This document shows positions 16,672 through 52,804 of a stretch of DNA of 64,000 bases, piece by piece. A model generated the notes under the pieces. The model was not told where the DNA came from, searched no databases, and saw nothing but the letters and a program-made list of their open reading frames with translations. Numbering within the stretch: the stretch's first letter is position 1; each line of letters opens with the position of its first letter. The position numbers and the translations under genes are program-made. This DNA is from Streptomyces sp. NBC_00461 (GTDB lineage Bacteria; Actinomycetota; Actinomycetes; Streptomycetales; Streptomycetaceae). The DNA is taken from the NCBI RefSeq assembly GCF_036013935.1, contig NZ_CP107902.1:2389001-2453000 (forward strand). Direction: 5' to 3'.

Positions 16672-16694
16672 ACCGTAGAGGGCACCACTGACAA
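16672..16694 (-). promoter_or_regulatory. PafBC/RecA-independent DNA-damage promoter of the MFS gene
   Basis: On the minus strand TTGTCAGTG (16686-16694), exactly 8 bases, then TACGGT (16672-16677). This fits the mycobacterial RecA-NDp consensus TTGTCRGTG-N8-TANNNT at every defined position. The GTG start follows about 30 bases below the -10 box with its own Shine-Dalgarno sequence, leaving a short leader. Confidence 0.8.
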
Positions 16695-16804
16695 TCGGTC
16701 CGCAGGCGACCGGCCGCCGGTGACGAAACGGGCCGCTGACGGCAGAGGTCGGTGACGAAACAGCTCCGGCCAGGCACCCTGGGTACCCGGCCGGCTCTCA
16801 ACTC

Positions 16805-17140
16805 CTAGATTTCTCCCCGCAGTTTGGCGAGCGCCTCGGCGAGGATCGCCTCGCCGTCCGCGTCGCTGCGCCGCTCCCGGACGTACGCGAGGTGCGTCTT
16901 GTAGGGCTCGGTGCGCGGCGGGTCCGGCGGGTTGTCCCGGTCCTGTCCGGCCGGGAAGCCGCAGCGCGGACAGTCCCAGGTCTCCGGAACCTGCGCGTCG
17001 CTGGCGAAGCTGGGCTGCGTCTCGTGCCCGTTGGAGCACCAGAAGGAGATGCGCAGACGCGGCGCGGACTCGCCACGCTCGGCCTCGCCCATCGGCCCCG
17101 CCCCGACCCGGCTTCCTCGGATCGCGTTGCCACTTGCCAC
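16805..17140 (-). CDS. RbpA-family RNA polymerase-binding protein (RbpB-like paralogue)
   Basis: Small protein of 111 residues. RbpA-family proteins bind RNA polymerase and group 1/2 sigma factors and stabilise the open complex in actinobacteria. The zinc-site pattern Cys-x3-His (CSNGH near residue 35) then Cys-x2-Cys (WDCPRCGFPAG near 57) is present, followed by a linker and a sigma-interacting helix with THLAYVRERRSDADGEAIL near 83-101. The sequence differs clearly from what I remember of S. coelicolor RbpA, which starts MSERALRGTRL, so a paralogue such as RbpB is more likely. The GTG at 17140 has GGGAG eight bases upstream. Confidence 0.85.
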   Translation of the reverse strand: MASGNAIRGSRVGAGPMGEAERGESAPRLRISFWCSNGHETQPSFASDAQVPETWDCPRCGFPAGQDRDNPPDPPRTEPYKTHLAYVRERRSDADGEAILAEALAKLRGEI

Positions 17141-17353
17141 GGTCGTAACTCCCTGCGTGATGGTGCCGCGAAGCGAGTCGGCGTGTCGCTTCGTTGCGGG
17201 CGCCTCAGTCTACGTAAGGCCCAACGCGCGTCCAGTGATGGGAGTTACATCCCCTACATCCAGACGCAAGCCCCATGATAGGCCGCGCTCAGCTGCGCGT
17301 ACCGAACATGGGGCCTTACGTGCGGAATCCAGGTGCTGTGTGTGCGTTGCTGC

Positions 17354-17590
17354 TCAGCTGTTCGTCTTCATGATGATGCCGAGTACGACAATGCACGCGA
17401 ACCACAGCAGACCGATCACCACGGTGATGCGGTCGAGGTTGCGCTCGGCGACCGAGGAGCCGCCGACGGACGACTGCATGCCGCCACCGAACATGTCGGA
17501 GAGGCCGCCGCCCTTCCCCTTGTGCATCAGCACCAGCAGCATCATCAGCAGGCTGAAGACGATCAGGGCGATCGAGAACCCCAAAACCAC
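17354..17590 (-). CDS. secG: Preprotein translocase subunit SecG
   Basis: Small membrane subunit of the SecYEG channel, 78 residues, two helices: about 2-22 (VLGFSIALIVFSLLMMLLVL) and about 55-75 (ITVVIGLLWFACIVVLGII). Between them lies the conserved loop HKGKGGGLSDMFGGG. The start is placed at GTG 17590, giving VVLGFSIAL as in other Streptomyces; the frame from 17659 adds a non-conserved hydrophilic segment. The gene follows tpiA with a hairpin between them. Confidence 0.93.
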   Translation of the reverse strand: MVLGFSIALIVFSLLMMLLVLMHKGKGGGLSDMFGGGMQSSVGGSSVAERNLDRITVVIGLLWFACIVVLGIIMKTNS

Positions 17591-17625
17591 GGCTGGACCA
17601 ACTCTCTCGGATTCGGATGAACGAC

Positions 17626-17655
17626 GGGGGCACGGTAGCTCCCTACCATGCCCCC
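17626..17655 (-). terminator. Hairpin between tpiA and secG
   Basis: GGGGGCA-C-GGTAG (17626-17638) pairs with CTACC-A-TGCCCCC (17643-17655) around a CTCC loop, with one mismatch. It lies just after the tpiA stop and may attenuate read-through into secG. Confidence 0.6.
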
Positions 17656-17688
17656 GCAAGGGTACGACGGATCGCCGCTATGGCCTAC

Positions 17689-18465
<777 letters not shown>

Positions 18466-18470
18466 AAAGG

Positions 18471-19682
18471 TCAGTCCTCCAGTGCGGCGAGGCCGGGGAG
18501 CGTCTTGCCCTCGAGGTATTCGAGGGAGGCGCCGCCACCGGTCGAGATGTGTCCGAACGCGTTCTCGTCGAAGCCCAGGAGGCGGACGGCCGCGGCGGAG
18601 TCGCCACCGCCGACCACCGTGAAGGCCTGGGAGTCGAGGAGGGCCTGGGCGACCGCCTTGGTGCCCTCGGCGAATTCGGGGTGTTCGAAGACGCCCATCG
18701 GGCCGTTCCAGAAGACGGTGGCGGCGTCGGTGATCTTCGAGGCGTACAGCTTGCCGGACGCCGGGCCGATGTCCAGGCCCATCCGGTCGGCGGGGATGGC
18801 GTCCGCGGCGACGGTGGTGGCGTCGGCCGGGGCCTTGGTCTTCAGGTCCGGGAACGCGGGGGCGACCACCGCGTCGACCGGCAGGACCAGCTCGACGCCG
18901 GTCTTCTCGGCCCGCTCGATGTACTCCAGGACCGCCGGGATCTGGTCCTCCTGGAGAAGGGACGCGCCGACCTCGTGGCCCTTGGCCTTGAGGAAGGTGA
19001 AGGCCATGCCGCCGCCGATGAGGATGCGGTCGGCCTTGCCGAGCAGCTGGTCGATGACGGCGAGCTTGTCGGAGACCTTGGCGCCGCCGAGCACGACCAC
19101 GTAGGGCCGCCGGACCTCGTCGGTGAGCTTCTTCAGGACGCCGACCTCGGTGGCGATGAGGTGGCCGGCGTAGTGCGGCAGACGGGCCGGCAGGTCGTAC
19201 ACGGAGGCGTGCTTGCGGTGCACCGCGCCGAATCCGTCGCTGACGTAGACGTCCGCGAGGGCGGCGAGGCGGTCCGCGAACTCACCGCGCTCGGTGTCGT
19301 CCTTGGAGGTCTCCCCGGCGTTGAAGCGCAGGTTCTCGATGACCGCGACCTGGCCCGGCTGCAGGCCGTCCACGGCGTCGTGGGCGGCGGGGCCGACGGT
19401 GTCCTGGGCGAACGCCACGGGCGCGCCGAGCAGTTCACCGAGCCGCTCCGCGGCGGGCAGCAGCGAGAAGGCCGGGTCCGGCGCGCCCTTGGGGCGGCCG
19501 AGGTGCGAGGCGACGACGACGCGCGCGCCGGCCTCGGCGAGGGCCTTCACGGTGGGCAGCACGGCGCGGATACGGCCGTCGTCGGTGATGGTGGTGCCGT
19601 CCAGCGGCACGTTGAGGTCGGCGCGGACGAAGACCCGCTTGCCGGTCACGCCTTCGGCGAGGAGTTCGTCGATCGTCTTCAT
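18471..19682 (-). CDS. pgk: Phosphoglycerate kinase
   Basis: Transfers phosphate from 1,3-bisphosphoglycerate to ADP, 403 residues. The signature [14 protein letters not shown] is at about 15-28, the substrate-binding ASHLGRPKG near 58, and the nucleotide-binding [13 protein letters not shown] plus C-terminal [14 protein letters not shown] are present. The ATG at 19682 has GGAG nearby (GAGGAG). It sits between gap and tpiA on one strand, with a hairpin upstream that may give it some independence from gap. Confidence 0.98.
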
Positions 19683-19748
19683 TGAGAGGGCTCCCGAGGA
19701 GGACTTGTGGTGCTCGTGATCGTAAGAGCGCTGATCCGTACGTGAGTC

Positions 19749-19786
19749 AGGGCCCGGGCGGCGCGTCGCTGCGCCGCCCGAGCCCT
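19749..19786 (-). terminator. Hairpin between gap and pgk
   Basis: CGGGCGGCGC (19755-19764) pairs perfectly with GCGCCGCCCG (19771-19780) over a 6-base loop, with an outer AGGGC/GCCCT extension. It lies 30-67 bases after the gap stop. It may set the ratio of gap to pgk-tpiA transcripts. Confidence 0.65.
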
Positions 19787-19815
19787 GCCGTCACATCAAG
19801 TGCCTGCTCTGTGGA

Positions 19816-20853
<1,038 letters not shown>

Positions 20854-20955
20854 CTATGCGGTGCCGGCGAGCTCTGTTTGGGATGTCCCCGACCAACCCC
20901 GACCCTACCTCCCTGCGGGCCCCGCGGTGACATCGAGACGCCCCATACATGGGCA

Positions 20956-20991
20956 GGCGGTCCGTACCCGCCAGTAGCGGTACGGACCGCC
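20956..20991 (-). terminator. Terminator after the M14 carboxypeptidase gene
   Basis: GGCGGTCCGTACC (20956-20968) pairs perfectly with GGTACGGACCGCC (20979-20991) around a 10-base loop. It lies 64 bases past the carboxypeptidase stop and upstream of the gap promoter region, so it probably insulates gap. Confidence 0.75.
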
Positions 20992-21054
20992 CGGCTCGAA
21001 AGTTCTGATCACTCTTTCTGACTACGAGGTGCTAGTCATCGTTGACCAGGTGAT

Positions 21055-24009
21055 TCAGCCCCGGAGAGCCGCGAGTGCCTTCTTGACGAGGGCGTTGCGA
21101 TCCGCGGCCGCGGGGACGTGCTCCAGACCGAAGCCCAGCAGCACGCTCCGGTCGGTGGTGATCGCGCCGTACGTCTTGAACAGTGCCCCGGTGCGCGCCC
21201 AGTCCTTGAGCACGGCCGGGCTGCCCGCGGGCGGTCCGCTCACGCTCCAGGCGCCGAGCGACGTCTCGAAACCCTCGGTCTGCGTCGCCGTGCCGCCGAC
21301 GACGAGCGAGGCCTCGTCGGCGAGGACGCCGTGGCCGCCCGTGCTGGGGTCGGTGACATAGCTGATGGAGACCTCGACGGACTTTCCTGCGTAGGCGCTC
21401 AGGTCGTAGTTGACCTGCTGCCAGCCGCTGGAGGCGCCGGTGAGGCTGTTCCAGGACCCGCTGGTGCCGCTCGCGGTGCAGCCGCCGGAGGCGACGGTGA
21501 GGTAGTGCTTGAGCCACGGGTGCTCGTTCACCAGGAAGCCCGCCTCGCACTCCGCCGGCACCTTCTGGCTGGTGGCGCCGCCTGCCTCCGGCAACGTCGT
21601 CCAGTCGTCCGCGCCGGTGGTGTGCGCCTCGACGATCACATGGTCGTAGCCGGGTTCGGTGTCCCACAGCAGCCGGCTGCGCAGGGTGGGCTGCCCGGCC
21701 GCGGTCACGCCGGTGAGGTCGACGGTGCGGGTGAGGCGCTTGTAGGAGTCGTCGGTGTGGACGGCCGCTGCCATGGAGGAACCCGCGTACGGCGCGTACG
21801 GGTCGACGGTCCCGGCGAACCGGCCCGCGCCCGCGCTCGCGAACTGCGGGTAGGTGCCGACGGGCAGTTCCTCGGAGGTGGCGCTGTAGGTGCCCGCCTT
21901 GTCGAGCGGGTTGCCGGGAGCCGCACCGAGCGCACCGCTGAAGCCGTCGAGTTTGCCGGAACCGGTGATGCCGGTGGCCCCGGGCGTCGACGTACGCGAA
22001 TAGGCGCCCAGGTAGTACTGGCTGAAGTCGTTCGACAGGGTGCCGCCGCCGAGATCGACGTTGCCGCCGGCCTGCTCGCCCGCCTCGATCAGCTTGCCGC
22101 CCTCGTTGAGGAAGGCGCGCAGCTGAAGCTGGGTGGCGTTGCCGGGGACGCTCGCGCCGGTGTAGTGGACGACCGTCCTGAAGTGCTTCAGCACGCCGAG
22201 CGCGTCGGGCGCGCCCTGGGTGGCGACGTCCCAGACGATCGCCTTGCGGCCGTTCGCCTTCAGCGCGTCCACGTACGTCTGCGCCTGCGTGGCGGCCGCG
22301 CCCTCCTCGGCGACGACGAGGGTGTCGGCCTTGGGCCGCTGGGCGACGGTGTAGGTGAAGTGCCCGCTGGAGACCTTCTTGCCGCTCTTCGACTTTCCGG
22401 TGAACCAGACCTCGACCCTGTCGCCCGGGTCGCCGTCCTTGACCCTGGCCCGGTACTCGTCGAAGTGCAGGTTGTCCGCACCGCCGTAGGTCTCGCCGCC
22501 CTTCCAGGACCTGAGCGCCACGTCCTTGGTACGGCCGCCGTCGACGCGGTACTTCAGCTCCTTGCCGCGGACGGCCTTGCGTGCGACGACGGAAACCTCC
22601 TGGTCGGCGCCGCGGGAGTACGAGGTGGAGAACGTCGCCGGGGTGAAGTCGGCCGCGGTCAGGCCGAGCGAGGAGGACGGCGTGTCGGGGTGCGGGGCGG
22701 TCTCGGCGACCGACAGCGCGAAGGGGACGTTCTTCGCGAACTCCGCCTGGATCAGCTTCTCGTCGTCCGGGAAGTTGAACACGGACTGGCAGTCGGCCGC
22801 GTTCCACTGGTCGCCCGGATCGACGTTCGAGGCGGTCTGGCAGGTCGACATCTCGGGGGTGAACATCGACATGCCGTTGACGTTCCCCGCGTGGCCGTCC
22901 GCCTCGCCGTTGGTCGTGTACAGCTCCGAGGAGACCTGCGGGTGGTAGCCGGGGATCGCGGAGTTGTCCGGCGAACCGGCGAGGGCCTTGTAGACGACGT
23001 CGTCCGGGGTCGGCGTGGCGACCTGCCAGCCGACGCCGTAGAGGAGGAGTTCGGCGGCGGAGTGGTAGTTGATGGCGTACCTGAAGCCGATCCGCTTCTC
23101 GAAGGCGTCGAGCGCCTTGGTCTCGGGCTCGGAGCCGGGGCTCGCGCCGCGATAGGTCTCACTGGTCGGGTTGGGCGACGAACCCTCGTCGTCGTAGCCC
23201 CACTTGTAGGCGAAGTTTCGGTTGAGGTCGACGCCGTCGCCGGTGGAGATGACACCGTCGCCGTTGACGTCCCGCAGGTTCTTGCGCCACAGGCGGGTGT
23301 CGGAGTTCCGGAACGTGTAGTCGTAGCCGTCGGGGTTGGCGGAGATCACGAACCACAGCTCGGTCGAGTCGACGATCTTCCTGATGCGTTTGTCCGTCTT
23401 GTAGTTGTCCAGGTAGTAGTGCATCAGCCGGCGGGTCATCTCCGGCGTGATCCACTCGCGCGCGTGCTGGTTGGACATGTAGAGGACGGAGGGCTTCGAG
23501 CCGTCCTTGGACTTCTTCGCGCCCTTGGTCAGTTTGAGCGCGAGGATGTCCTGGCCGTTGACGGTCTTGCCGATGGAGACGACCTTGGTGAGGCCGGGGT
23601 TCTGCTGCCCGGTCCGGACGATCTCCTCCTTGAGCCCACCGCTTCCGCCGTACGGGCGGAACACGCCCTGGGCGGCGGCATCGACACGCTTCTCCGCCTT
23701 GGCCGAAAGTGTGCGCTCGGTGAGGTCGACGCCCTGTTTCTCCAGCTTGTGGGCCTGCTGGTCGGTCAGATAGACCTCGACCGATGCGGTGCCCTTGTCC
23801 GGGACCTGCTGGCCGAGTTCGTGACTGTCCTGTCCGGCCGCCAGCAGCAGGGGTACCTGCCTGGCGGTGACGTCGGCGCGGAAGACCTTGACCTCGTTGG
23901 GGTCGGATCCCTGCGAACTTCCGTTCTGCGCCTGGGCGACGGGTGCGAGGCTCGCTCCGCCGATCAGAAGCGCGCCGGCAGCGAGGATCAATCTCGCTCT
24001 AGGTCTCAT
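21055..24009 (-). CDS. Secreted M14 family zinc carboxypeptidase, multidomain
   Basis: Exported 984-residue peptidase. Signal peptide about 1-28 (MRPRARLILAAGALLIGG, then ...APVAQAQ). The M14 catalytic domain runs about 115-440: HAREWITPEM gives the His-x2-Glu zinc ligands near residue 180, INYHSAAELLLYG supplies the third His and a Glu in the TPEMSTC region could be the catalytic base. A following region from about 550 to 700 contains a DUF4350/GATase-like fold candidate, and the C-terminal 250 residues resemble the jelly-roll or immune-inhibitor-A-like modules of secreted peptidases. The ATG at 24009 has AGGGGGG six bases upstream; the frame from 24135 is spurious. Confidence 0.9.
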   Translation of the reverse strand: MRPRARLILAAGALLIGGASLAPVAQAQNGSSQGSDPNEVKVFRADVTARQVPLLLAAGQDSHELGQQVPDKGTASVEVYLTDQQAHKLEKQGVDLTERTLSAKAEKRVDAAAQGVFRPYGGSGGLKEEIVRTGQQNPGLTKVVSIGKTVNGQDILALKLTKGAKKSKDGSKPSVLYMSNQHAREWITPEMTRRLMHYYLDNYKTDKRIRKIVDSTELWFVISANPDGYDYTFRNSDTRLWRKNLRDVNGDGVISTGDGVDLNRNFAYKWGYDDEGSSPNPTSETYRGASPGSEPETKALDAFEKRIGFRYAINYHSAAELLLYGVGWQVATPTPDDVVYKALAGSPDNSAIPGYHPQVSSELYTTNGEADGHAGNVNGMSMFTPEMSTCQTASNVDPGDQWNAADCQSVFNFPDDEKLIQAEFAKNVPFALSVAETAPHPDTPSSSLGLTAADFTPATFSTSYSRGADQEVSVVARKAVRGKELKYRVDGGRTKDVALRSWKGGETYGGADNLHFDEYRARVKDGDPGDRVEVWFTGKSKSGKKVSSGHFTYTVAQRPKADTLVVAEEGAAATQAQTYVDALKANGRKAIVWDVATQGAPDALGVLKHFRTVVHYTGASVPGNATQLQLRAFLNEGGKLIEAGEQAGGNVDLGGGTLSNDFSQYYLGAYSRTSTPGATGITGSGKLDGFSGALGAAPGNPLDKAGTYSATSEELPVGTYPQFASAGAGRFAGTVDPYAPYAGSSMAAAVHTDDSYKRLTRTVDLTGVTAAGQPTLRSRLLWDTEPGYDHVIVEAHTTGADDWTTLPEAGGATSQKVPAECEAGFLVNEHPWLKHYLTVASGGCTASGTSGSWNSLTGASSGWQQVNYDLSAYAGKSVEVSISYVTDPSTGGHGVLADEASLVVGGTATQTEGFETSLGAWSVSGPPAGSPAVLKDWARTGALFKTYGAITTDRSVLLGFGLEHVPAAADRNALVKKALAALRG

Positions 24010-24100
24010 GAACCCCCCTAGCAGTGGTCCGCCACAGTGGCGAACTGCTGCCAGGTTCATGACACTCCATGATCGAGTCAAGGGGGCCACGGACAGACGG

Positions 24101-24141
24101 ACGCCGGTGCCGACGCCCCAACAGGGCATCGGCACCGGCGT
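24101..24141 (-). terminator. Terminator of the uvrC-rapZ-yvcK-whiA operon
   Basis: ACGCCGGTGCCGA (24101-24113) pairs perfectly with TCGGCACCGGCGT (24129-24141), 24 bases past the whiA stop. The central part can extend the stem. Confidence 0.8.
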
Positions 24142-24164
24142 GTTGAACGATCCTTCGCTCGCCG

Positions 24165-26212: not shown

Positions 26213-27177
26213 TCCCGTCCCATGTCCCGGTGCACGACCACCGTCTCCACACCCTCGGCCACGAGGCGCGCGGCGAGCTTCTCGGAGGTGGCGACCGAAC
26301 GGTGCTTGCCGCCGGTGCAGCCGATGGCGATGGTCACGTACCGCTTGCCCTCGCGGCGGTAGCCGGCCGCGATGAGCCGCAGCAGCTCGGCGTAACGGTC
26401 GAGGAACTCCTTGGCGCCGGGCTGGTTGAAGATGTACGCCGACACCTCCTCGTTGAGACCGGTGAAGGGGCGCAGCTCCGGGATCCAGTGCGGGTTGGGC
26501 AGGAACCGCATGTCCGCGACCAGGTCGGCGTCGACCGGGAGGCCGTACTTGAAGCCGAAGGACATGACGGTGGCCCTCAGCTCCGGCTCCTCCTCGCCGG
26601 CGAACTGGGCGTCCATCTTGGCGCGCAGCTCGTGCACGTTCAGGCTGGAGGTGTCGATCACCAGGTCGGCGTCGCCGCGCAGCTCGCGCAGCAGTTCGCG
26701 CTCGGCTGCGATGCCGTCGACGATGCGGCCGTCGCCCTGGAGGGGGTGCGGGCGGCGTACCGACTCGAAGCGGCGCACCAGGGCCTCGTCGGAGGACTCC
26801 AGGAAGACGATCCGCCGGGTGACGTGCTTGGACTCCAGGTCGGCGAGGGAGTCGCGGAGGTTGTCGAAGAAGCGGCGGCCGCGGACGTCGACGACGACCG
26901 CGATCCTGGCCACGTTGCCCTGCGAGCGGGCGCCGAGTTCCACCATGGTGGGGATCAGGGCGGGCGGCAGGTTGTCGACGACGAACCAGCCGAGGTCCTC
27001 CAGACACTTGGCGGCCGTCGACCTGCCCGCACCGGACATGCCGGAGATGATCACCAACTCGGGGATGGCCGACTCGGGCACCCCGGGTGTTTCGCTGCCC
27101 GTACTCACCTGTGCTCCGTCTCCGGCTGAGCCGTCTCCGGCTGGGGTCTGCTGCCCGTCGTGCTCGTTCACATTCAT
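26209..27177 (-). CDS. rapZ: RNase adapter/nucleotide-binding protein RapZ (YvcJ)
   Basis: P-loop protein of 322 residues. Walker A is [20 protein letters not shown] near 44-63. The C-terminal domain contains FGFKYGLP near 206, the segment RDLPNPHW-like [12 protein letters not shown] and the HRS motif [10 protein letters not shown] near 288. E. coli RapZ controls glmZ decay; the function in Streptomyces, which lacks that sRNA pathway, is not established. The first 38 residues are Ser/Gly/Glu-rich. ATGA overlap links it to uvrC upstream, and yvcK and whiA follow, the conserved Gram-positive order rapZ-yvcK-whiA. Confidence 0.95.
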
Positions 27178-29234
27178 GTCTCCTGCCCCCGTCGTTCGTC
27201 CGGGGCGCCCATCGTCACGGGCTCCCCACTGGAACCCATGGTGCCGGGTTCCTCCTCCATGATCTCTCCAGTCGCCGTGTTCACGGCGGGCGCGGCCGGG
27301 GCCGCCTGGGCGAGGGCCGCGGCAATGGTCTCGGCCGTCTTGCGGCCTATGCCGGGAACCTCGCAGATCTGGTCGATGGTGGCGGATCGCAGTTTCTTCA
27401 ACGAACCGAAGTGCTTGAGAAGTGCCTGCTTGCGGGTGTCTCCGAGGCCGGGCACGTCATCCAGGGGGCTCGACCGGAAGCGCTTGGCCCGCTTGGTGCG
27501 CTGATAGGTGATCGCGAAGCGATGGGCCTCGTCACGGACGCGCTGCAGCAGGTAGAGGCCCTCGCTGGTGCGGGGCAGGACCACAGGGTCGTCGTCGTCC
27601 GGCAGCCACACCTCCTCCAGACGCTTGGCCAGGCCGCACACCGCGACGTCGTCGATGCCGAGCTCGTCGAGGGCCCTCTTGGCGGCCGCGACCTGGGGCT
27701 GCCCGCCGTCGACGACGACGAGCTGGGGCGGGTAGGCGAACTTCTTGGGCCTGCCCTCCTCGTCCTTGAGGCCGTTGCCGAGATCACCGTCGAGGTGGTT
27801 CTCCTGGCCGTCGTCGACCCACTCGCCGGTCTTCTCCTTCTCGACCAGGTACCGCCTGAAGCGGCGGGTGATCACCTCGTGCATGGAGCGGACGTCGTCC
27901 TGGCCCTCGAAGCCCTTGATCTGGAAGCGGCGGTACTCGCTCTTGCGCTGCAGGCCGTCCTCGAAGACGACCATGGACGCCACGACGTCGTCGCCCTGGA
28001 GGTGCGAGATGTCGTAGCACTCGATCCTCAGGGGTGCGCTGTCCAGGTCGAGAGCGTCGGCGATCTCCTCCAGGGCGCGCGAGCGCGTGGTCAGGTCGGA
28101 GGCACGCTTGGTCTTGTGCAGCACCAGCGACTGCTGGGCGTTGCGCTCCACCGTCTCCATCAGGGCCTTCTTGTCGCCGCGCTGCGGGATGCGCAGGGAG
28201 ACGCCCGAGCCCCGGCGCTCGGCGAGCCACTGCTGGACGGGCTCGACCGGGTCGGGCAGGGCGGGGACGAGGACCTCCTTGGGGACGGAGTCGCCCTTCT
28301 CCTCGCCGTACAGCTGCTGCAGGGCGTGCTCGACGAGGGCGCCGGTGGTGATCTCCTCGACCTTGTCGGTGACCCAGCCGCGCTGGCCACGCACGCGTCC
28401 GCCGCGGACATGGAAGATCTGGACCGCGGCCTCCAGCTCGTCCTCGGCGACCGCGATCAGGTCGGCGTCGGTCGCGTCGGCGAGCACGACCGCGCTCTTC
28501 TCCATGGCCTTCTTCAGGGCCCCGATGTCGTCGCGCAGGCGGGCCGCCCGCTCGTACTCCATGTCCTCGGCCGCCTGAGCCATCTGCTTCTCCAGGCGGC
28601 GGAGGTACGTGCCCGTCCGGCCGGCCATGAAGTCGCAGAACTCCTCGGCCAGTTCGTAGTGCTCCTCGGCCGAGACGCGGCCGACGCAGGGCGCCGAGCA
28701 CTTTCCGATGTAGCCGAGCAGACAGGGCCGGCCGGTGCGCGCGGCGTTCTTGAAGACGCCGGCCGAGCAGGTGCGCACGGGGAAGACGCGCAGGAGGAGG
28801 TCCACGGTGTCGCGGATCGCCCACGCGTGTCCGTACGGCCCGAAGTAGCGCACGCCCTTGCGCTTGTGGCCGCGCATCACCTGGACGCGCGGAAACTCCT
28901 CGTTCATGGTCACCGCGAGGTACGGATAGCTCTTGTCGTCGCGGTACTTGACGTTGAACCGCGGGTCGAACTCCTTGATCCAGGAGTACTCCAGCTGCAG
29001 GGCCTCGACCTCTGTGGACACCACGGTCCACTCCACGGACGCGGCCGTGGTGACCATCGTCCGGGTGCGCGGGTGCAGGTTCGTCAGGTCCTGGAAGTAG
29101 TTCGCCAGGCGCTGGCGCAGGCTCTTCGCCTTTCCGACGTAGATCACCCGGCGGTGCTCGTCGCGGAACCTGTACACCCCCGGAGAGTCCGGGATCGCAC
29201 CCGGCCTGGGGCGGTAGCTGGAGGGATCGGCCAT
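27174..29234 (-). CDS. uvrC: Excinuclease ABC subunit C
   Basis: UvrC makes both incisions in nucleotide excision repair. At 686 residues it has the GIY-YIG nuclease domain at the N-terminus ([20 protein letters not shown], about 19-38), the UvrB-interacting UVR motif ([20 protein letters not shown], near 205-225), the RNase H-like second nuclease domain (about 390-560, with [20 protein letters not shown]) and a C-terminal helix-hairpin-helix pair ([31 protein letters not shown]). The ATG at 29234 has no Shine-Dalgarno sequence but lies 7 bases from a TAGGGT -10 box, so it is probably leaderless. It is first in the operon with rapZ, yvcK and whiA. Confidence 0.98.
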
Positions 29235-33371: not shown

Positions 33372-36437
<3,066 letters not shown>

Positions 36438-36493: not shown

Positions 36494-36516
36494 AGACTAG
36501 GGGGAGCCACTGACAA
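36494..36516 (-). promoter_or_regulatory. PafBC/RecA-independent DNA-damage promoter of uvrA
   Basis: Minus-strand TTGTCAGTG (36508-36516), 8 bases, TAGTCT (36494-36499): full match to TTGTCRGTG-N8-TANNNT. The expected transcript has a leader of about 50 bases. Confidence 0.85.
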
Positions 36517-44076: not shown

Positions 44077-44388
44077 CTAGAACTCGGTCATGCCCACCAC
44101 GTCGCAGTCCGTGAAGGACGGCGGCCTGGTACACAATGCGGCCATCTGTTCGGCAATCTTCGTCGTCTCGGGGTCGTTGCTGTTGCGCATGGCCTCCTCG
44201 TACGAGTTGAACTCGATCACGACGAGATAGCGGCCCGGGTTGTTGCGGTCGTGCAGGACGAGGCGGTGCGTCGGGCCGCCACTGCGGCCGGCGAACTTCT
44301 TCTCCATCTCCTCGGACAGGGTCCGCATCTCCTCGATGCGGTCGGTCTCGAAGTCGACGATCTGCACGAACTTCATCGGTGCGTCCAC
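44077..44388 (-). CDS. Small dimeric alpha/beta-barrel (ABM-like) protein
   Basis: A 103-residue protein that resembles antibiotic-biosynthesis-monooxygenase-type ferredoxin folds: KFVQIVDFETDRIEEMRTL at the N-terminus and RNNPGRYLVVIEFNSYEEAM near 50-69, with no catalytic signature. Members are often stress-linked or unannotated. The GTG at 44388 has GGAGG four bases away; the ATG four codons later would have an unsuitable spacing. It lies downstream of terC on the same strand, 127 bases away. Confidence 0.7.
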   Translation of the reverse strand: MDAPMKFVQIVDFETDRIEEMRTLSEEMEKKFAGRSGGPTHRLVLHDRNNPGRYLVVIEFNSYEEAMRNSNDPETTKIAEQMAALCTRPPSFTDCDVVGMTEF

Positions 44389-44515
44389 GGTGCCTCCACC
44401 CGGCCATGGCTCTCCCGGGGCGGGAGCGCCAAGCACCCAACGAAGCACCGGGAGCGGTGGTCGGCAATTCGCCGCGCACCGCTCCCGGAGGTGGTTGTCC
44501 CTACGTCGGTCGTGG

Positions 44516-45517
44516 TCAGGCCTGGATGCTGTCCTTCGGAGCGCCTTCGCTCTCCGCCTGCGCCGCCTCGGCCGCCGCCTGCTTCTTGGACGCCCTGAGG
44601 CTGGTGATCGTGGTGATCGCCAGGACGAGCACGATGAAGCCGAGTGAGAACGGGATGCCGATCTCGGGGACGTGGACCCCCGACTCGTGCAGCGCGTGCA
44701 GTACCAGCTTCACGCCGATGAAGCCCAGGATGATCGACAGGCCGTAACTGAGGTGGACCAGCTTCCTCAGCAGTCCGCCGATGAGGAAGTACAGCTGCCT
44801 GAGGCCCATCAGCGCGAACGCGTTCGCCGTGAACACGATGTAGGGGTCCTGGGTCAGACCGAAGATCGCGGGGATCGAGTCGAGCGCGAACAGGACGTCG
44901 GTGGTGCCGATCGCGAGCATCACGACCAGCATCGGCGTCATGACCCGCTTGCCGTTCTGGGCGATCCACAGCTTGGTGCCGTGGTAGCGGTCGGCGACGC
45001 CGAAGCGGCGCTCGACGGCCTTCAGCAGCTTGTTCTCCTCGAACTCCTCGTCCTCCTCGTCGGCCCTGGCCTCCTGGATGAGCTTCCAGGCCGTCCAGAT
45101 CAGGAAGGCGCCGAAGAGGTAGAAGACCCAGGCGAAGCTGGCGAGGATCGCCGCTCCGGCGGCGATGAAGATCGCCCGCAGTACCAGGGCTATGAGGACA
45201 CCGACGAGCAGGACCCGCTGCTGGTACTGGGACGGCACGGCGAACTTCGCCATGATCAGCACGAACACGAAGAGGTTGTCGACGCTCAGCGACTTCTCGG
45301 TGATGAAGCCCGCGAAGAACTCACCACCCGCCTGGCCGCCTCCGAAGACGAGCAGGCCGAGCCCGAAGAGCCCGGCGAGGGCGATCCAGACGACCGTCCA
45401 GATCCCGGCTTCCTTGATCGAGACGTCGTGCGGCTTGCGGCCGATGAAGAAGTCGACCGCGATGAGGGCGGCAAGGCCCACGATGGTCAGGACCCACAGG
45501 GTCGGGGAAACATTCAC
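44516..45517 (-). CDS. TerC family membrane protein, likely Mn2+ exporter
   Basis: Integral membrane protein, 333 residues and about nine helices. TerC motifs: ITEKSLSVDNLFVFVLIMAKF near 80-100 and GTTDVLFALDSIPAIFGLTQ near 205-224, both carrying conserved Asp. A charged cytoplasmic loop (ADEEDEEFEENKLLKAVERR) is near 160. TerC homologues such as Alx/MeeF export Mn2+, sometimes protecting secreted metalloenzymes. The GTG at 45517 has GGAGG five bases upstream. The leader carries a yybP-ykoY manganese riboswitch, strongly supporting the Mn2+ role. Confidence 0.93.
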   Translation of the reverse strand: MNVSPTLWVLTIVGLAALIAVDFFIGRKPHDVSIKEAGIWTVVWIALAGLFGLGLLVFGGGQAGGEFFAGFITEKSLSVDNLFVFVLIMAKFAVPSQYQQRVLLVGVLIALVLRAIFIAAGAAILASFAWVFYLFGAFLIWTAWKLIQEARADEEDEEFEENKLLKAVERRFGVADRYHGTKLWIAQNGKRVMTPMLVVMLAIGTTDVLFALDSIPAIFGLTQDPYIVFTANAFALMGLRQLYFLIGGLLRKLVHLSYGLSIILGFIGVKLVLHALHESGVHVPEIGIPFSLGFIVLVLAITTITSLRASKKQAAAEAAQAESEGAPKDSIQA

Positions 45518-45521
45518 TGCG

Positions 45522-45667
45522 CCTCCGGCAGTACGTAACGGCAAATGTCAGCGTCGTCGCTACCGGAGGTCTCTTCCACCCAGGCACGGGCCCTGGGCCG
45601 ACGCCCCGGGATCTGGTTGATCCGTACTGACGGGTGCGCCGCAGCAGACAGGGAGTACTCCCCTCCG
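45522..45667 (-). ncRNA. yybP-ykoY manganese riboswitch with Shine-Dalgarno switch
   Basis: The aptamer is 45564-45667 on the minus strand. CGGAGG (45662-45667) closes with CCTCCG (45564-45569). L1 carries GGGGAGTA, L3 carries CCCGTCAGTACGG and the 3' side has AGAGACC, all hallmarks of the yybP-ykoY class that senses Mn2+. The 3' closing strand CCTCCGG (45563-45569) is also exactly complementary to CCGGAGG at 45522-45528, which is the terC Shine-Dalgarno sequence. P1 formation and Shine-Dalgarno masking are therefore mutually exclusive, giving a translational ON switch. Fit to the covariance model was not run. Confidence 0.8.
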
Positions 45668-45747
45668 TGAGGAAAACAGTACCCCAATCACCAAGGAAAG
45701 GTAAAGCGATTGGTAAAAGAAAGGCCAAAACAGCTGGTCAGAGAGCT

Positions 45748-47742
45748 TCACATGTACTTGGTGCGGCCCTGCGCGATCTGACTGAGCACCTGCTGGAGCA
45801 CCTGACTGCCGGGCGGCACGAGCGCCGGCTCGTACGTCCAGGCATGGCCGACCCACGGGTCGGCGAGGTGGTCGTCGGGCAGCGGTGTGAGTCGCATCAG
45901 CGAACGCCACAGGGGGTCGAGCAAAGGCCCGTATCCGGCGGCCTCCTCGCGGTCCGCGACCATCATCAGGTGGACGCCGACGGCCGGGCCCTCGTCCGCG
46001 AGATAGCGTAGCTGGGTCACGGCACGGTCGTCGAAGCCGTGCGGGAAGTCGTTGACGATCAGGAGCTGTTCGGCGGTGTCGAAGCCGGGCGGCAGCGAGT
46101 CTGCCGCACCACCGCGCACCGCCATCTGCACCAGGTCGACGCGCTGGGTGAGCCGGGTCAGGACGTCCGACACCCCTGCCGCACCCGGGGCAGGTGGTGA
46201 GGCGAGCAGGCCGGTCCGCACCAGCGGCGCGAGCGCCTGAGCCCCGGAGCCGGCCGGGTCGATGACGTGCACGGCGAACTCGCCCGCCGGGTAGACCGCG
46301 AGCAGCCGGACCGCCAGCGCCACCGCCGTGTCCATCGCGAGGCGTCCAGGTGCGTGGGCGTCCGCGTACGACTCGTCGAGTGATCCGGTGCGTCCACTGT
46401 CGATCCACAGACCGCGTTCGAGCGGCAGGCGGACCAGCATGGGGATGCGCAGCAGCTCGCTCTCGGGCAGGTACAGGTCGCCCAGGCGCAGGGCCATGGG
46501 GATCTCCATCGGCACCCGGTAGGCGTGCCAGACGGGGTTGTCCCAGCGTGCGTACGCGGGCGGCAGCGCGGGCTCGACGACATCGGACTCGGCGGCCAGC
46601 TGGGCGAGGTCCCGGTCCAGGGCCTGGCGGGCCTGGTCGACGAGTTGCGCGTGCTTGACCCGGGCCGCCTCGCGGGCGGCGTCACCCTGTCCACCGATCC
46701 TGCTGCGCGGGTCGGACAGGGCCTGGTCGAGCTCCTTCTCCATGCGTGAGTCGGCGAAGTCGACGGCGCTGCGGTACGCGGCCGCGGTCCGGGCCAGGTC
46801 CTCGAACATGCCCCACACCTGGTTGTACAGCCGTTCGTCCATCGACCAGCCGGTGGCGTCGCCCGCGACGGGCTGCGCGGGCTGCCCGGGCGGGGCCTGA
46901 GGCGCGGTCGGCGGGGGCGGAGGCGGTGCGGCGTTCTGCCGCCCGGGGTGGCTGTAGTCGACCGGGCTGCCGACGTGGGGAACGGACGGCTGGGTGGCCG
47001 CGGAAGGGTTCGCGGGATACCCCGACTGCGTGCCCTGTGGACCGTACGGCGACGTGGGCTGCGGGATCGCGTGACCAGGGGTGGCCTGGGGCGCGGGCCC
47101 GCCCTGGTCGGGGCCGAGCGCCGGTGCGGCGGCCTGGCGGGTACGGTCGCCGTCCGCCGTGCGCTGCGGAGGTGCGGGCACCGAGCGGGCCAGGCCTTGA
47201 GCCACCGCCTCGTTGATCGTGCCCGCGAGCTGGTGGGCCTCGGACAGGCCCTGGTCGGCGAAGAGTTCGGCGAGGCCGCCTGCGTAGCCCTGGCCGACGG
47301 CGCGCACCTTCCAGGCGCCCTGCCGTCGGTAGAGTTCCAGGGCGACGACGGCCGACTCGGCGTCCAGGCCGGTGATGGTGTAACTGGCGACCTCGGTGCC
47401 GTCGAGGCCGGTGACCGCGACGAACGGGGCCGCCACGGCGCCGAAGCGGACCGGTCCCCCGCCTCCGGTGGGCAGGGCGAGCAGCACATTGACGCGGTGC
47501 ACGGCCTCCGGCATGGCGCCCAGGTCCACCGCGAGACGGTGGTCGGCGGCGGCCTGCTTGGAGACCTCCAGCCCCGGGAGAGTGGGGGCACCCGGATGCG
47601 CCACCCATTCCACGCCGCGGGCCCTGCCGTGCTCGTCGCTGAGCGTGGCCGAGGCCACGACCGGTGCACCGGCCGAGACCCGGATCTCCAGACGGGCCTG
47701 GGAGAGCGAGTGGTTCTGCCCCCGCACCAGCTCGGCCGTCAT
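45748..47742 (-). CDS. TerD-domain protein with C-terminal FtsK/ATPase-like region
   Basis: A 664-residue two-part protein. Residues about 1-165 form a TerD domain (LVRGQNHSLSQARLEIRVSA; VVALELYRRQGAWKVRAVGQ), a Ca2+-binding fold. A Pro/Gln/Gly-rich linker (about 205-310) leads to an alpha-helical and mixed region of unknown class that ends with LIVNDFPHGFDDRAVTQLRY and DREEAAGYGPLLDPLW, reminiscent of TerY-P or FtsK-adjacent ter-cluster proteins, but without a clear Walker A motif. The ATG at 47742 gives MTAELVRGQNHSL, with GAGGGCG just upstream. It lies 82 bases from a second terD gene on the same strand. Confidence 0.75.
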   Translation of the reverse strand: MTAELVRGQNHSLSQARLEIRVSAGAPVVASATLSDEHGRARGVEWVAHPGAPTLPGLEVSKQAAADHRLAVDLGAMPEAVHRVNVLLALPTGGGGPVRFGAVAAPFVAVTGLDGTEVASYTITGLDAESAVVALELYRRQGAWKVRAVGQGYAGGLAELFADQGLSEAHQLAGTINEAVAQGLARSVPAPPQRTADGDRTRQAAAPALGPDQGGPAPQATPGHAIPQPTSPYGPQGTQSGYPANPSAATQPSVPHVGSPVDYSHPGRQNAAPPPPPPTAPQAPPGQPAQPVAGDATGWSMDERLYNQVWGMFEDLARTAAAYRSAVDFADSRMEKELDQALSDPRSRIGGQGDAAREAARVKHAQLVDQARQALDRDLAQLAAESDVVEPALPPAYARWDNPVWHAYRVPMEIPMALRLGDLYLPESELLRIPMLVRLPLERGLWIDSGRTGSLDESYADAHAPGRLAMDTAVALAVRLLAVYPAGEFAVHVIDPAGSGAQALAPLVRTGLLASPPAPGAAGVSDVLTRLTQRVDLVQMAVRGGAADSLPPGFDTAEQLLIVNDFPHGFDDRAVTQLRYLADEGPAVGVHLMMVADREEAAGYGPLLDPLWRSLMRLTPLPDDHLADPWVGHAWTYEPALVPPGSQVLQQVLSQIAQGRTKYM

Positions 47743-47824
47743 CGCCCTCGTCCCCCTGTGTCGCTGGTCCGTCGTGTCGTGTGCCGCCAGGGCCTGCACT
47801 CCGACAGGCCCCGGCGGGATTGCC

Positions 47825-48403
47825 CTACAGGTGCGGCAGGATCGACGGCATCAGATCCTGGAAGGTGCGGCCGTTGGCCGGGGTGCCGAGCGCGGTCATC
47901 GTCCAGCCCGGGCCCGAGCGGTGCACCTTCGCCATGATCTGGGCCGTGTAGGCGCCACCGCCCGCCAGCGTGTAGCGGGCCAGCTCCTGGCCGTTGGTCT
48001 CGTCGACCAGACGGCAGAACGCGTTCTGCACTTCCTGGAAGGTCTGGCCCGTGAAGGAGTTCACGGTGAAGACGATCTGGTCGATGTGGACCGGGATGCG
48101 CGCCAGGTCGACGAGGATCGCCTCGTCGTCGCCGCCCTGGCCGACACCGCCCACGAGGTTGTCACCGGTGTGGCGCACGGAGCCGTCGTCGCTCACCAGG
48201 TGGCGGAAGAAGACGACGTCGACCGGCTGCTTGTCCGCGAACAGGACCGCGGAGGCGTCCAGGTCGATCTCCCGCGTGCGCGAGCCGAACAGGCCGCGCC
48301 GGGGAGCCGCCTGCCAGCCGAGACCCATGCGCACCGCGGTCAGGCTGCCTCCGTCGTTCTTCTGCAGACTGATGGCCTGACCCTTGGTCATGTTGACGGT
48401 CAC
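47825..48403 (-). CDS. TerD family protein
   Basis: Calcium-binding stress protein of the TerD family, 192 residues. TMTKGQAISLQKND-type start (MTVNMTKGQAISLQKNDGG) and the acidic metal-binding segment EIDLDASAVLFADKQPVDVV near 45-64 with GGDDEAILVDLARIP near 88-104 are typical. The wider ter system is linked to tellurite, phage and colicin stress; in Streptomyces, TerD proteins also influence development. It is upstream of the TerD/C-terminal fusion and probably in the same operon. The stop of uvrB-side sequences does not overlap. Confidence 0.93.
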   Translation of the reverse strand: MTVNMTKGQAISLQKNDGGSLTAVRMGLGWQAAPRRGLFGSRTREIDLDASAVLFADKQPVDVVFFRHLVSDDGSVRHTGDNLVGGVGQGGDDEAILVDLARIPVHIDQIVFTVNSFTGQTFQEVQNAFCRLVDETNGQELARYTLAGGGAYTAQIMAKVHRSGPGWTMTALGTPANGRTFQDLMPSILPHL

Positions 48404-48563
48404 GCGCTGATTCCCCTCTCGAACTGTCCCCTGTTGCCGCGGAGTCCGCGGTTGACCAGAACCCTACGCAGGGCCCCTGACCGTGCCGTACCCCGGCTCG
48501 TACTTTGTGTCGGTCTTGCAACACACAGCGCGTATGCCGAGGCCCGGCGGTCGCCCGCGGAGG

Positions 48564-50702
48564 TCAGGCCAGGCCCGCCTCCCTCATCTGACGCAGTTCC
48601 TTCTTCATCTCGGAGACCTCGTCGCGCAGCCGGGCCGCGATCTCGAACTGGAGGTCGGCGGCCGCGGCCCGCATACGCGCCGTCATCTCCTCGATCTGCT
48701 CGGCGAGTTCGGCCGCGGGCCGGTCGGTCGGGACCGTCTCCTTGGCCTTGCCCTTGGCGGACTTGGCACCGCCGGCCGCCTTGCCGCCGAGGGCGGGCAC
48801 GGGTGCCTTGGCGCCCTTGCCCTCCTTGAGCTTGCGGTAGCCGGAGCCGAGCAGCTGTTCGGTGTCGACGTCCTCGCGGGCGATCTGCGCGACGATGTCG
48901 TTGATCTTCTTGCGGAGAGGCTGAGGGTCGATGCCGTTCGCCGTGTTGTACGCGACCTGCTTCTCCCGGCGGCGGTTGGTCTCGTCGATGGCCTTCTCCA
49001 TCGCCGGGGTGATCTTGTCGGCGTACATGTGGACTTGGCCGGAGACGTTGCGCGCCGCGCGGCCGATGGTCTGGATCAGGGACGTGCCGGAGCGCAGGAA
49101 GCCCTCCTTGTCGGCGTCGAGGATGGCCACCAAGGACACCTCGGGCAGGTCGAGGCCCTCTCGCAGGAGGTTGATGCCGACCAGGACGTCGAACTCGCCG
49201 GAGCGCAGTTCGCGCAGCAGCTCGACGCGGCGCAGGGTGTCGACGTCGCTGTGCAGATAGCGGACCTGGATGCCGAGCTCCAGGAAGTAGTCCGTGAGGT
49301 CCTCGGCCATCTTCTTGGTGAGGGTGGTGACCAGGACGCGCTCGTCCTTCTCGGTACGCGTCCGGATCTCGTGCACCAGGTCGTCGATCTGCCCCTCGGT
49401 GGGCTTGACCACGACCTCCGGGTCGATCAGGCCGGTGGGGCGGATGATCTGCTCGACGGCGCCGTCGCCGCGTGAGAGTTCGTACTTGCCCGGGGTCGCC
49501 GACAGATAGACCGTCTGCCCGATGCGCTCCTGGAACTCCTCCCACTTCAGGGGACGGTTGTCGAGGGCCGAGGGCAGGCGGAAGCCGTGGTCGACGAGGG
49601 TGCGCTTGCGGGAGGCGTCGCCCTCGTACATGGCGCCGATCTGCGGCACGGTGTTGTGTGACTCGTCGATGACGAGCAGGAAGTCGTCCGGGAAGTAGTC
49701 CAGGAGTGTGTTGGGCGGGGAGCCGGGCGAGCGGCCGTCGAAGTGCATCGAGTAGTTCTCGACGCCCGAGCAGGAGCCGATCTGGCGGAGCATCTCGAGG
49801 TCGTACGTCGTGCGCATCCGCAGGCGCTGGGCCTCCAGGAGCTTGCCCTGCTTCTCCAGCTCGGCCAGGCGCTCGCCGAGCTCCTTCTCGATGTCGTTGG
49901 CGGCCCGCTCCAGGCGCTCGGGGCCCGCTACGTAGTGGGTGGCCGGGAAGATGTACAGCTGCTGGTCGTCGCTGATGATCTCGCCGGTCAGCGGGTGGAG
50001 CGTGGAGAGTGCCTCGACCTCGTCGCCGAACATCTCGATGCGGACGGCGAGTTCCTCGTAAACCGGGAAGATCTCGATGGTGTCGCCGCGGACGCGGAAG
50101 GTGCCGCGCGTGAACGCCGTGTCGTTGCGCGTGTACTGGATGTCGACGAAACGGCGCAGCAGCTGGTCCCGGTCGATCTCGTCGCCGACCCTGAGGGGGA
50201 CCATGCGGTCCACGTACTCCTGCGGGGTACCGAGGCCGTAGATGCAGGAGACCGAGGCGACCACGATGACGTCACGGCGGGTGAGCAGCGAGTTGGTCGC
50301 GGAGTGGCGCAGGCGCTCGACCTCCTCGTTGATCGAGGAGTCCTTCTCGATGTAGGTGTCCGACTGGGGGACGTAGGCCTCGGGCTGGTAGTAGTCGTAG
50401 TACGAGACGAAGTACTCGACTGCGTTGTTCGGCAGGAGTTCTCTGAACTCGTTCGCCAGCTGGGCGGCCAGGGTCTTGTTCGGCGCCATCACGAGCGTGG
50501 GGCGCTGGAGCTTCTCGATCATCCACGCGGTGGTGGCGGACTTGCCGGTGCCGGTCGCGCCCAGCAGGACGACGTCCTTCTCGCCTGCCTCGATGCGTTT
50601 GGCCAGCTCGGCGATGGCCGTCGGCTGGTCGCCGCTGGGCTGGTAGGGGCTGACGACCTCGAAGGGCGCCACCGTGCGTTCGATGTTGGAAACGGGCCGC
50701 AT
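48564..50702 (-). CDS. uvrB: Excinuclease ABC subunit B
   Basis: DNA-damage verification helicase of nucleotide excision repair, 712 residues. Walker A is [15 protein letters not shown] near 48-62, the beta-hairpin [20 protein letters not shown] is near 100, the DEAH-like [15 protein letters not shown] near 350, motif [22 protein letters not shown] and [13 protein letters not shown] near 540-580, and the C-terminal UVR motif ([20 protein letters not shown]) near 670-690. Between is a Lys/Ala/Gly-rich linker ([20 protein letters not shown]). The ATG at 50702 lies 7 bases after the -10 box of the DNA-damage promoter, so translation is leaderless; the earlier GTG/ATG codons in frame lie inside the promoter. 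Confidence 0.98.
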
Positions 50703-50709
50703 GGAAACC

Positions 50710-50732
50710 ACCGTACGACCCGGCACTGACAA
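50710..50732 (-). promoter_or_regulatory. PafBC/RecA-independent DNA-damage promoter of uvrB
   Basis: Minus-strand TTGTCAGTG (50724-50732), 8 bases, TACGGT (50710-50715), then 7 bases to the ATG. Exact match to TTGTCRGTG-N8-TANNNT. Confidence 0.88.
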
Positions 50733-50742
50733 CGCGGACCGA

Positions 50743-51609
50743 TCAGCGGTTCTGCGGGGTGCGGGAGCCGCTCCGGCCGGGCTGCCGGACCGGGCGGAGC
50801 GGGGGGCGGTGGGCCGGGTGGTGGACCGCCGGATGGGCCGGGACGCCCGGCTTGTGCTCGACGGGGGTCCAGTCGGGTTTCCCCATGACCATCAGCGGGT
50901 CGAACATCACGACCACCCCCGCGAGCAGGAGGAAGGCGAGCGGGCCGACGAGCATGGGCCACAGCAGCGCGGCGGGCGATGCGCCGGCGGCGGGTGCCCC
51001 CGTGCCGTGGAGGTGGACGCTGAGGGCCGCCATGCCCGTGTAGTGCATGCCGCTGACGGCGAGGCCCATGACGAGGCTCGCGCCCACGCTCCACAGGAAG
51101 CCCCTGACCTGCCCGGCCGCCCACAGAGCGGCGGTCGCGGCCACCATCGCTATGACGACGGAGACGGCGACGGTCACCGTGTTGTACTCCAGCTGTCCGT
51201 TCAGGCGCATTCCGGCCATGCCCAAATAGTGCATCGAGGCGATACCCAGGCCGGTGATCGTGCCTCCGGTGAACAGGGCCGTACCTTTCGCGCCCTTGTA
51301 GCCGACGATGAATATGCCGATTCCCACCATGACGATGGCGACTCCGAGACTGGCGAACGTCATCGCTCTGTCGTAGTGGATGGGCGCCTGTTTGACCTTG
51401 AACCCCATCATCGCGACGAAGTGCATGGTCCATATGCCGGAAGCGATGGCCGCCGAACCGAGGGCCAGCCAGCCGGGCCGCCAGGAGTGCGAGACGACCA
51501 TGGATCTGGTGGTGCAGCGCAGGCCCAGAGCGCCGCCGAGGGAGGCCATGAGAAAGGCCACCAGCGGTGTGACGAGTCCGTAGCTGAATCCGTCGACCGT
51601 GCCTTGCAT
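50743..51609 (-). CDS. MHYT-domain sensory membrane protein
   Basis: Integral membrane protein of 288 residues with about seven helices. Three Met-His-x-x motifs are seen: WTMHFVAMM near 58, SMHYLGMAG near 129 and [10 protein letters not shown] near 193, the pattern proposed to bind Cu, O2, CO or NO. The C-terminal 40 residues are Pro/His/Arg-rich and hydrophilic; there is no GGDEF, EAL or kinase domain, so it would be a stand-alone sensor or metal-handling protein. The ATG at 51609 ([11 protein letters not shown]) opens directly into helix 1; the long upstream open frame is not coding. The gene lies just upstream of uvrB on the same strand. Confidence 0.87.
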
Positions 51610-51888
51610 GCGCGGCTGCCCTTCCCGCCTTCGTACGTCCTGTAATCCCCTGAAATACGCCCCTCCCGGGACCGCCCGGGCGGTCAGGGGTGAGGCAGAG
51701 AGTATGACTCCCACCGGAATGGTCGAACGATTTTCCGGCAAAGAAACACGTCGTTGCCTCAGTTGTGCGGCAACAGTGAGCGCACTTGGGCATCTGCATT
51801 CAATGTGTGGCCATCTTGCACCCCTCCGTCGTTGACGCTCTGCTGTCACAGTTGATCTGACCGTGATCGACCGACGCGAGGAGTACGC

Positions 51889-52764
51889 ATGCACGCGCGC
51901 GCAGTCGCCGCCATCACCGCCGCGCTCCTGGGGACCGCTGCCCTTCTGCTGCCCGGCTCCGCCGCCCGGGCGGGCGACGTCGGAGTGCGGCCCCTGGTCA
52001 TCGGCCACCGAGGGGCAGCCGCCTACGCGCCCGAGAACACACTGGCCTCCATCGACAAGGCGGCCGAGCTGGGCATCACCTGGGTCGAGAACGATGTCCA
52101 GCGCACCAAGGACGGCCAGCTCGTCGTCATCCACGACGACAGCCTGCAGCGCACCACGGACGTCGAGCAGGTGTTCCCCGACCGGGCGCCCTGGAAGGTG
52201 AAGGACTTCACCGCTGCCGAGATCGCACGCCTCGACGCGGGCAGCTGGTTCGGCCCCGGGTTCGGGTGCGCGCACGTGCCGACGCTGACGCAGTACATGC
52301 GCCGCGTCGAGCACAACCACCAGAAGCTGCTGCTGGAGATCAAGAACCCCGACCTGTACCCGGGCATCGAGGGGCAGACCCTGAAGGTCCTCGGCAACGA
52401 GGGCTGGCTCGACCGGCAGCACCTCGCCGACCGGCTGATCGTGCAGAGCTTCAGCGCGGACAGCCTGCGGATCGTCCATGACCTCAAACCCGCCGTCAGG
52501 ACGGGCTTCCTCGGCACACCGCGCGTCTCGGAACTGCCCGGGTACGCGAGCTTCACCGACGGGATCAACCCGTCCTACGGCTCGATCTCGCGGGGTTACG
52601 TCGCCGCCGTGCACGCCGTGACGGGACCGCACGGCCGGCCGCTCGCCGTCTTCGCCTGGACCGTCGACGACGCGGACACCGCCCGCCGGGTCGCCCGGTA
52701 CGGCGTGGACGGCCTCATCACCGACAAGCCGGATGTGGTCAGGGCCGCCCTGCAGGCCCCCTGA
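51889..52764 (+). CDS. Secreted glycerophosphodiester phosphodiesterase
   Basis: Hydrolyses glycerophosphodiesters to glycerol 3-phosphate and an alcohol, outside the cell. The 291-residue protein has a signal peptide (about 1-29, cleavage near AARAG). GDPD signature VIGHRGAAAYAPENTLASI is near 34-52 and WVENDVQRTKDGQLVVIHDD near 63-82 contains the catalytic His and metal-binding Glu. The C-terminal FAWTVDDADTARRVARYG is typical. The ATG at 51889 has GAGGAG six bases upstream. It may scavenge phosphate or teichoic-acid fragments. Confidence 0.95.
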   Translation: MHARAVAAITAALLGTAALLLPGSAARAGDVGVRPLVIGHRGAAAYAPENTLASIDKAAELGITWVENDVQRTKDGQLVVIHDDSLQRTTDVEQVFPDRAPWKVKDFTAAEIARLDAGSWFGPGFGCAHVPTLTQYMRRVEHNHQKLLLEIKNPDLYPGIEGQTLKVLGNEGWLDRQHLADRLIVQSFSADSLRIVHDLKPAVRTGFLGTPRVSELPGYASFTDGINPSYGSISRGYVAAVHAVTGPHGRPLAVFAWTVDDADTARRVARYGVDGLITDKPDVVRAALQAP

Positions 52765-52781
52765 GCCCCGCTCGCCGGGCG

Positions 52782-52804
52782 TTGTCAGTGGCGGGTCGTA
52801 CGGT
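52782..52804 (+). promoter_or_regulatory. PafBC/RecA-independent DNA-damage promoter of ogt
   Basis: TTGTCAGTG (52782-52790), GCGGGTCG, TACGGT (52799-52804), then GGGCGC and the ATG. Exact match to TTGTCRGTG-N8-TANNNT; the spacer and -10 are almost identical to the uvrB promoter (CCGGGTCG TACGGT). Confidence 0.88.

Follow-up and report, generated by a model that had tools for sequence, protein, structure and literature searches.

Candidate PafBC-type DNA-damage promoters in Streptomyces, often leaderless in geometry, with counterparts in temperate actinophages

Introduction

In Streptomyces sp. NBC_00461, do uvrA, uvrB, ogt and a gene for a major facilitator superfamily (MFS) exporter answer to one and the same DNA-damage promoter? 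The four genes lie in a 64-kb stretch of DNA, C1:2389001-2453000 of the 10.37-Mb single-contig genome, which was analyzed as a whole and is called the window below. A first-pass annotation placed a copy of TTGTCAGTG-N8-TANNNT ahead of each gene, identified it as the RecA-NDp consensus now attributed to PafBC, and read the set as RecA/LexA-independent. The existence of a Streptomyces PafBC damage response was stated as open in PMC9380542. We infer promoter and regulon function from sequence throughout, and on that footing we consider it probable that the four sites act as promoters within a DNA-damage regulon of the PafBC type, that much of this regulon is leaderless, and that phages run an IrrE-like protease from the same promoter.

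Results

All four copies were recovered with 0 mismatches, where 100 shuffles gave an expectation of 0.00. Each faces one of the four genes, as a single shared promoter class would (Table 1), and a tolerance of 2 mismatches added no further copies in the window. The whole-genome scan that the annotation had suggested returned 28 exact copies and 0 in the reversed genome. With one mismatch the scan gave 103 copies versus 5 reversed, and spacers of N7 and N9 gave 0 exact copies each. Four of the 28 sites fall within 36,132 bp, a clustering with P 0.0035 under uniform placement (20,000 draws, post hoc). The annotation described the sites as always preceding genes, which is true of the window (4/4); across the genome, a gene can be assigned to 23 of the 28 only.

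Among the remaining five, one is doubtful (L012) and four have no assigned gene (L001, L013, L021 and L023), two of these lying, by eye, inside other reading frames. L021 was considered as the promoter of an ABC exporter and rejected, because by eye the site falls within the upstream reading frame. Family searches placed PafBC-type sites ahead of uvrA, uvrB, ogt, ung, recA, radA, dnaX and others; these promoters are predicted to drive DNA-damage genes and to make them inducible. When each site was read in its own direction, 15 targets had a start codon 6-10 nucleotides (nt) past the -10 element: genes for a CoiA-nuclease-like protein, a RarA-like ATPase, a DSHCT helicase beside pafBC, a HAD hydrolase, a DUF3263 protein, a DUF2797 protein, a SWIM protein, an ABC transporter, a PRA-PH/MazG-like protein, a DinG-type helicase and a YjbR protein, together with uvrB, ogt, dnaX and radA. 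Eight targets are leadered: ung, uvrA, rpsF, recA (ATG at +43), the MFS gene, and genes for a 297-aa protein without known function, a RecD2 HHH-domain protein (its site falls, by eye, within the last part of the preceding gene) and a 54-aa small protein (by eye). Names such as RarA and DinG are partly an assumption, as several queries covered no more than 300 residues; rpsF is presumably in an operon with ssb. Besides the MFS gene, one more exporter-type gene, that of the ABC transporter, has a PafBC-type site, here leaderless and found in two Streptomyces genomes (L024, L222). Many one-mismatch sites retain TTGTCAGTG but begin the -10 with C or G instead of T, often with an AT end; the -10 element may be looser than the consensus.

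The class extends beyond this genome. In a sample of 396 genomes of the phylum, the 19 other genomes of the genus held 6-37 exact copies each, 399 in all versus 1 reversed; the remaining genomes held 0-4. In 15 genomes of the class, hand-picked and mostly with an exact match already, the R form with one mismatch occurred in 15-66 copies, each count above its own control, the weakest being G192 (15 versus 7) and G363 (36 versus 15). The MFS promoter was found upstream in 80/80 Streptomyces loci, 76 exact and 4 with one mismatch, at the first base only; these loci are the best 80 of 160 relatives, all named Streptomyces records including two metagenome-assembled genomes, and more divergent relatives lie outside the sample. 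Information content over 81 sequences is 1.96 bits per base for the 9-mer and 1.97 for the -10, versus 0.48 for the 60 nt upstream. The support for the MFS gene as a stable member of the regulon comes from this conservation.

The identity of the motif agrees with the annotation: TTGTCRGTG-N8-TANNNT is attributed to PafBC in PMC6789036 and PMC8223512, and with their strict spacing the four sites are members of this known RecA-NDp/PafBC class. The genome itself encodes pafBC, in a locus that groups pafC, pafB, pafA, tatA, tatC and the DSHCT helicase; the assignment is based on HTH_PafC, WYL and WCX domains, with a second WYL/WCX protein and a Pup ligase nearby. By analogy with mycobacterial work (PMC6789036, PMC11804915), PafBC would act in the present Streptomyces as well. 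ClgR, for instance, or some other regulator might instead be the main reader of the motif: PMC5656591 cites a report that ClgR recognizes the RecA-independent motif in mycobacteria and lists 15 affected proteins with the motif at their genes. Later in vivo binding and structures give the motif to PafBC (PMC6789036, PMC11804915), and with pafBC present in this genome we regard a different reader as very unlikely.

The claim of RecA/LexA independence stood only in part. On one side, UvrA and SSB of M. tuberculosis rise without RecA (PMC8151990), which fits a RecA-independent reading. On the other, S. venezuelae LexA was located at the uvrA promoter by chromatin immunoprecipitation sequencing and surface plasmon resonance and also binds recA (PMC9380542), and in our genome 14 bases identical to the validated S. 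venezuelae recA SOS box stand 112 bp upstream of the PafBC-type recA site. A search for LexA boxes beside the four window promoters gave candidates no better than background: the uvrA candidate, identical in the 3 uvrA loci compared, has 2 mismatches, a level equaled in 118/400 random windows; the best candidates at uvrB and ogt are at this same level; and the MFS promoter has no SOS box with up to 3 mismatches allowed.

In Streptomyces, the distance from the -10 to the start codon sets many of these sites apart. A site was counted as leaderless if ATG or GTG stood at +5..+10 after the -10, followed by at least 60 open codons, so that the call is one of geometry alone, typically a start codon at +6/+7. 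By this count 68/121 PafBC-type sites in Streptomyces are leaderless, versus 5/47 housekeeping-type sites (Fisher 2e-8). The first figure comprises 17/28 in the present genome (the 15 targets, L012 and an in-frame GTG ahead of the recA ATG) and 51/93 in 13 other Streptomyces, 93 of whose 297 sites were read. The control, TTGACA-N17/18-TANNNT, draws 17 sites from the present genome and 30 of the 98 found in the other 13, and includes some chance matches (17 versus 5 reversed in the present genome, 98 versus 13 in the others). Elsewhere the leaderless counts were 19/21 in G260 (all exact R-form sites of that genome), 13/22 in family f3 (10 genomes), 3/3 in G082, 3/4 in f8 and 1/2 in f10. The sum over all groups is 107/173, offsets 6 and 7 alone giving 87, while six shifted windows gave 12-27; sites from other classes, outside this sum, gave 1/5.

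Such geometry might merely reflect the general leaderless share of actinobacteria, which is 21% in S. coelicolor (PMC4895711), or compact promoters. The control for f3 and G260 combined, at 8/14, shows no contrast with the 13/22 of f3 (P 0.59), and enrichment over housekeeping promoters was dropped as a claim outside Streptomyces. Against this explanation stand the Streptomyces control, the 19/21 of G260 (a genome with just 1 control site) and the conservation of leaderless status by gene within Streptomyces (SWIM 8/8, YjbR 4/4). On balance we hold an unspecific geometry to be rather doubtful. Among the genes of the window, the uvrA site stands 55-56 nt ahead of the start in orthologues from 3 other Streptomyces, the leaderless geometry of uvrB is repeated in 2 other Streptomyces and G260, ogt of one other Streptomyces has its ATG at +7, and the MFS gene, which is leadered, has a start codon at +5..+10 in just 2/80 loci. 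Across families, dnaX is leaderless in three, and uvrA, leadered in Streptomyces, is leaderless in two others (L257, L258). This geometry would give uvrB, ogt, radA and dnaX leaderless mRNAs. At recA, the in-frame GTG lies at +7, ahead of the ATG, with the same bases in four Streptomyces genomes; a leaderless RecA with a longer N terminus is possible.

Temperate actinophages and proviruses carry a PafBC-type promoter of the same spacing ahead of a metalloprotease gene in the immunity region. The protease start codon stands at +6..+8 after the -10, and a DUF3263/helix-turn-helix gene often comes next. With at most 2 mismatches the promoter is present in 16 of 20 sampled phages, whose hosts are Gordonia and Mycobacterium, and a repressor is labeled in 12/22 phage records read. 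The protease resembles proteases known to be triggered by damage: its predicted fold matches IrrE/PprI and CapP, and HExxH is present, as in the IrrE/M78 group; a sequence search of solved structures gave a best E value of 0.1. In L547, L551, L559 and L564 the annotated protease start precedes the promoter end by 86, 17, 56 and 203 nt, inside or above the promoter, and the leaderless ATG seems the more likely start.

Alternatively, the sites could be phage promoters of an ordinary kind whose likeness to the motif was inherited within a few phage lineages, with PafBC not acting there. Close relatives and duplicates are common among the phage records, some sites depart from the motif by 2-3 mismatches, and viral contigs in bulk show no excess of the leaderless pattern (97 stretches versus 88 reversed), the signal being confined to GC-rich loci (20/97 viral loci with GC >0.6 versus 0/80 control loci examined). 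Descent alone fits poorly with a site that is kept ahead of proteases down to 33.6% identity (Horus), is nearly the sole copy in each phage genome, spans phages of both hosts, and reappeared in further phage versions reached by a DUF3263-based search. We therefore judge such an origin unlikely and prefer use of the PafBC promoter by the phages. DUF3263 also stands behind a leaderless PafBC-type site in both a Streptomyces host (L015) and a viral contig (L367). A TnpB-like viral-contig gene (L376 1257-3005; OrfB_IS605, Cas12f1-like TNB) starts 7 nt past an exact site, which may be chance.

Table 1. Promoters and genes of the window
Feature	Coordinates	Strand	Basis and remarks
PafBC-type promoter of MFS gene, TTGTCAGTG-N8-TANNNT	16672..16694	-	exact match; 30 nt from last -10 base to GTG 16641; leader about 24-30 nt
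PafBC-type promoter of uvrA	36494..36516	-	exact match; 56 nt to GTG 36437; leader about 50 nt
PafBC-type promoter of uvrB	50710..50732	-	exact match; 7 nt to ATG 50702; leaderless geometry
PafBC-type promoter of ogt	52782..52804	+	exact match; 6 nt to ATG 52811; leaderless geometry
MFS exporter gene, 423 aa	15370..16641	-	PF07690 E 1.8e-32, PF05977 E 4.7e-30 (MFS_1/MFS_3); no specific efflux family above cut-off in family profile search
uvrA	33372..36437	-	NF001503 1581 bits, cut-off 1147; start codon chosen in present analysis
uvrB	48564..50702	-	NF003673 1079 bits, cut-off 743
ogt, methylated-DNA-protein-cysteine methyltransferase	52811..53365	+	TIGR00589 92.5 bits, cut-off 46.4
uvrC	27174..29234	-	NF001824 1130 bits; no PafBC-type site in 300 nt upstream, best candidate 3 mismatches

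Discussion

In the mechanism that we propose, PafBC activated by single-stranded DNA would bind TTGTCAGTG as a -26 element and recruit the housekeeping RNA polymerase to the -10 box, which follows after 8 bp, steps shown in mycobacteria, and transcription would start about 7 bases past the -10. For 15 of the 23 assigned targets that base falls on the start codon or close to it, so that the mRNAs of uvrB, ogt, radA, dnaX, the DinG-type helicase and others would be leaderless, while uvrA, recA, rpsF-ssb, ung and the MFS gene would retain leaders. The IrrE-like protease in temperate phages of this bacterial class would be driven from a PafBC-type promoter with identical spacing, which would couple prophage exit to host PafBC. 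We lean slightly toward a fuller scheme, in which temperate actinophages exploit an SOS-independent damage pathway of the host: PafBC fires the leaderless phage promoter, the IrrE-like protease and the small DUF3263 protein remove the immunity repressor so that the prophage leaves, and in actinobacteria more broadly much of the damage regulon is leaderless.

Several observations weigh against this picture. Five of the 28 sites are doubtful or lack an assigned gene, sites in related genomes are non-independent so that relatedness inflates the leaderless counts, the housekeeping control in f3 and G260 is as leaderless as the PafBC-type sites, and the bulk viral contigs show no excess. In Streptomyces, recA and probably uvrA are under LexA as well, and the S. 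venezuelae authors report that their initial search did not show the motif to be conserved there (PMC9380542). The M. tuberculosis alkA-ogt operon is induced without RecA and under pafBC knockdown (PMC8151990), which suggests that control of ogt differs between genera. Among the sampled phages, REQ2 and Dulem virus 32 are without the site, and Foldseek E values for the phage protease are weak, the best being 0.028.

The site list makes a Streptomyces PafBC response directly testable. A largely leaderless damage regulon would have an output that follows ribosome state and the balance of initiation factors IF2 and IF3. In S. venezuelae LexA targets the IF3 gene infC, which is induced about 3-fold (PMC9380542 Table 1), PMC3062782 attributes to IF3 an effect on leaderless initiation, and infC/IF3 is a possible link between the LexA and PafBC damage responses. 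If the regulon is as proposed, it would be a functionally linked leaderless group; PMC4681348 (S. coelicolor) and PMC4633059 (M. smegmatis, standard growth) describe leaderless genes without linked function. Likewise, if their protease is driven by PafBC, actinophages would have a means of sensing DNA damage by a route other than RecA.

The promoter class itself is already known, and is here well supported in a genus where the response was called open; judged from the open literature, the leaderless geometry (which exceeds its control within Streptomyces alone) and temperate phages as users look new. Like mycobacterial RecA-NDp/PafBC promoters, an instance of sigma adaptation, the Streptomyces sites combine the 9-mer, the 8-bp spacer and TANNNT with pafBC beside pafA and with targets such as recA, uvrA, uvrB and ssb. 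Unlike them, they are mostly of the A form, occur in more exact copies, include an MFS exporter and ogt among their members, and have a measured leaderless share. They belong to the same class, in the same genus, as the RecA-NDp promoters of recA and SCO6735 (PMC5087735), where single genes were studied, whereas the present set is genome-wide with controls. The phage protease resembles IrrE/PprI, ImmA-type repressor proteases and CapP of the CBASS defense system in predicted fold, in HExxH and in a gene that adjoins a repressor, a pairing that we take to parallel ImmA/ImmR. It differs from all three in that cleavage of the repressor is only putative and in that its gene would itself stand under a host damage promoter.
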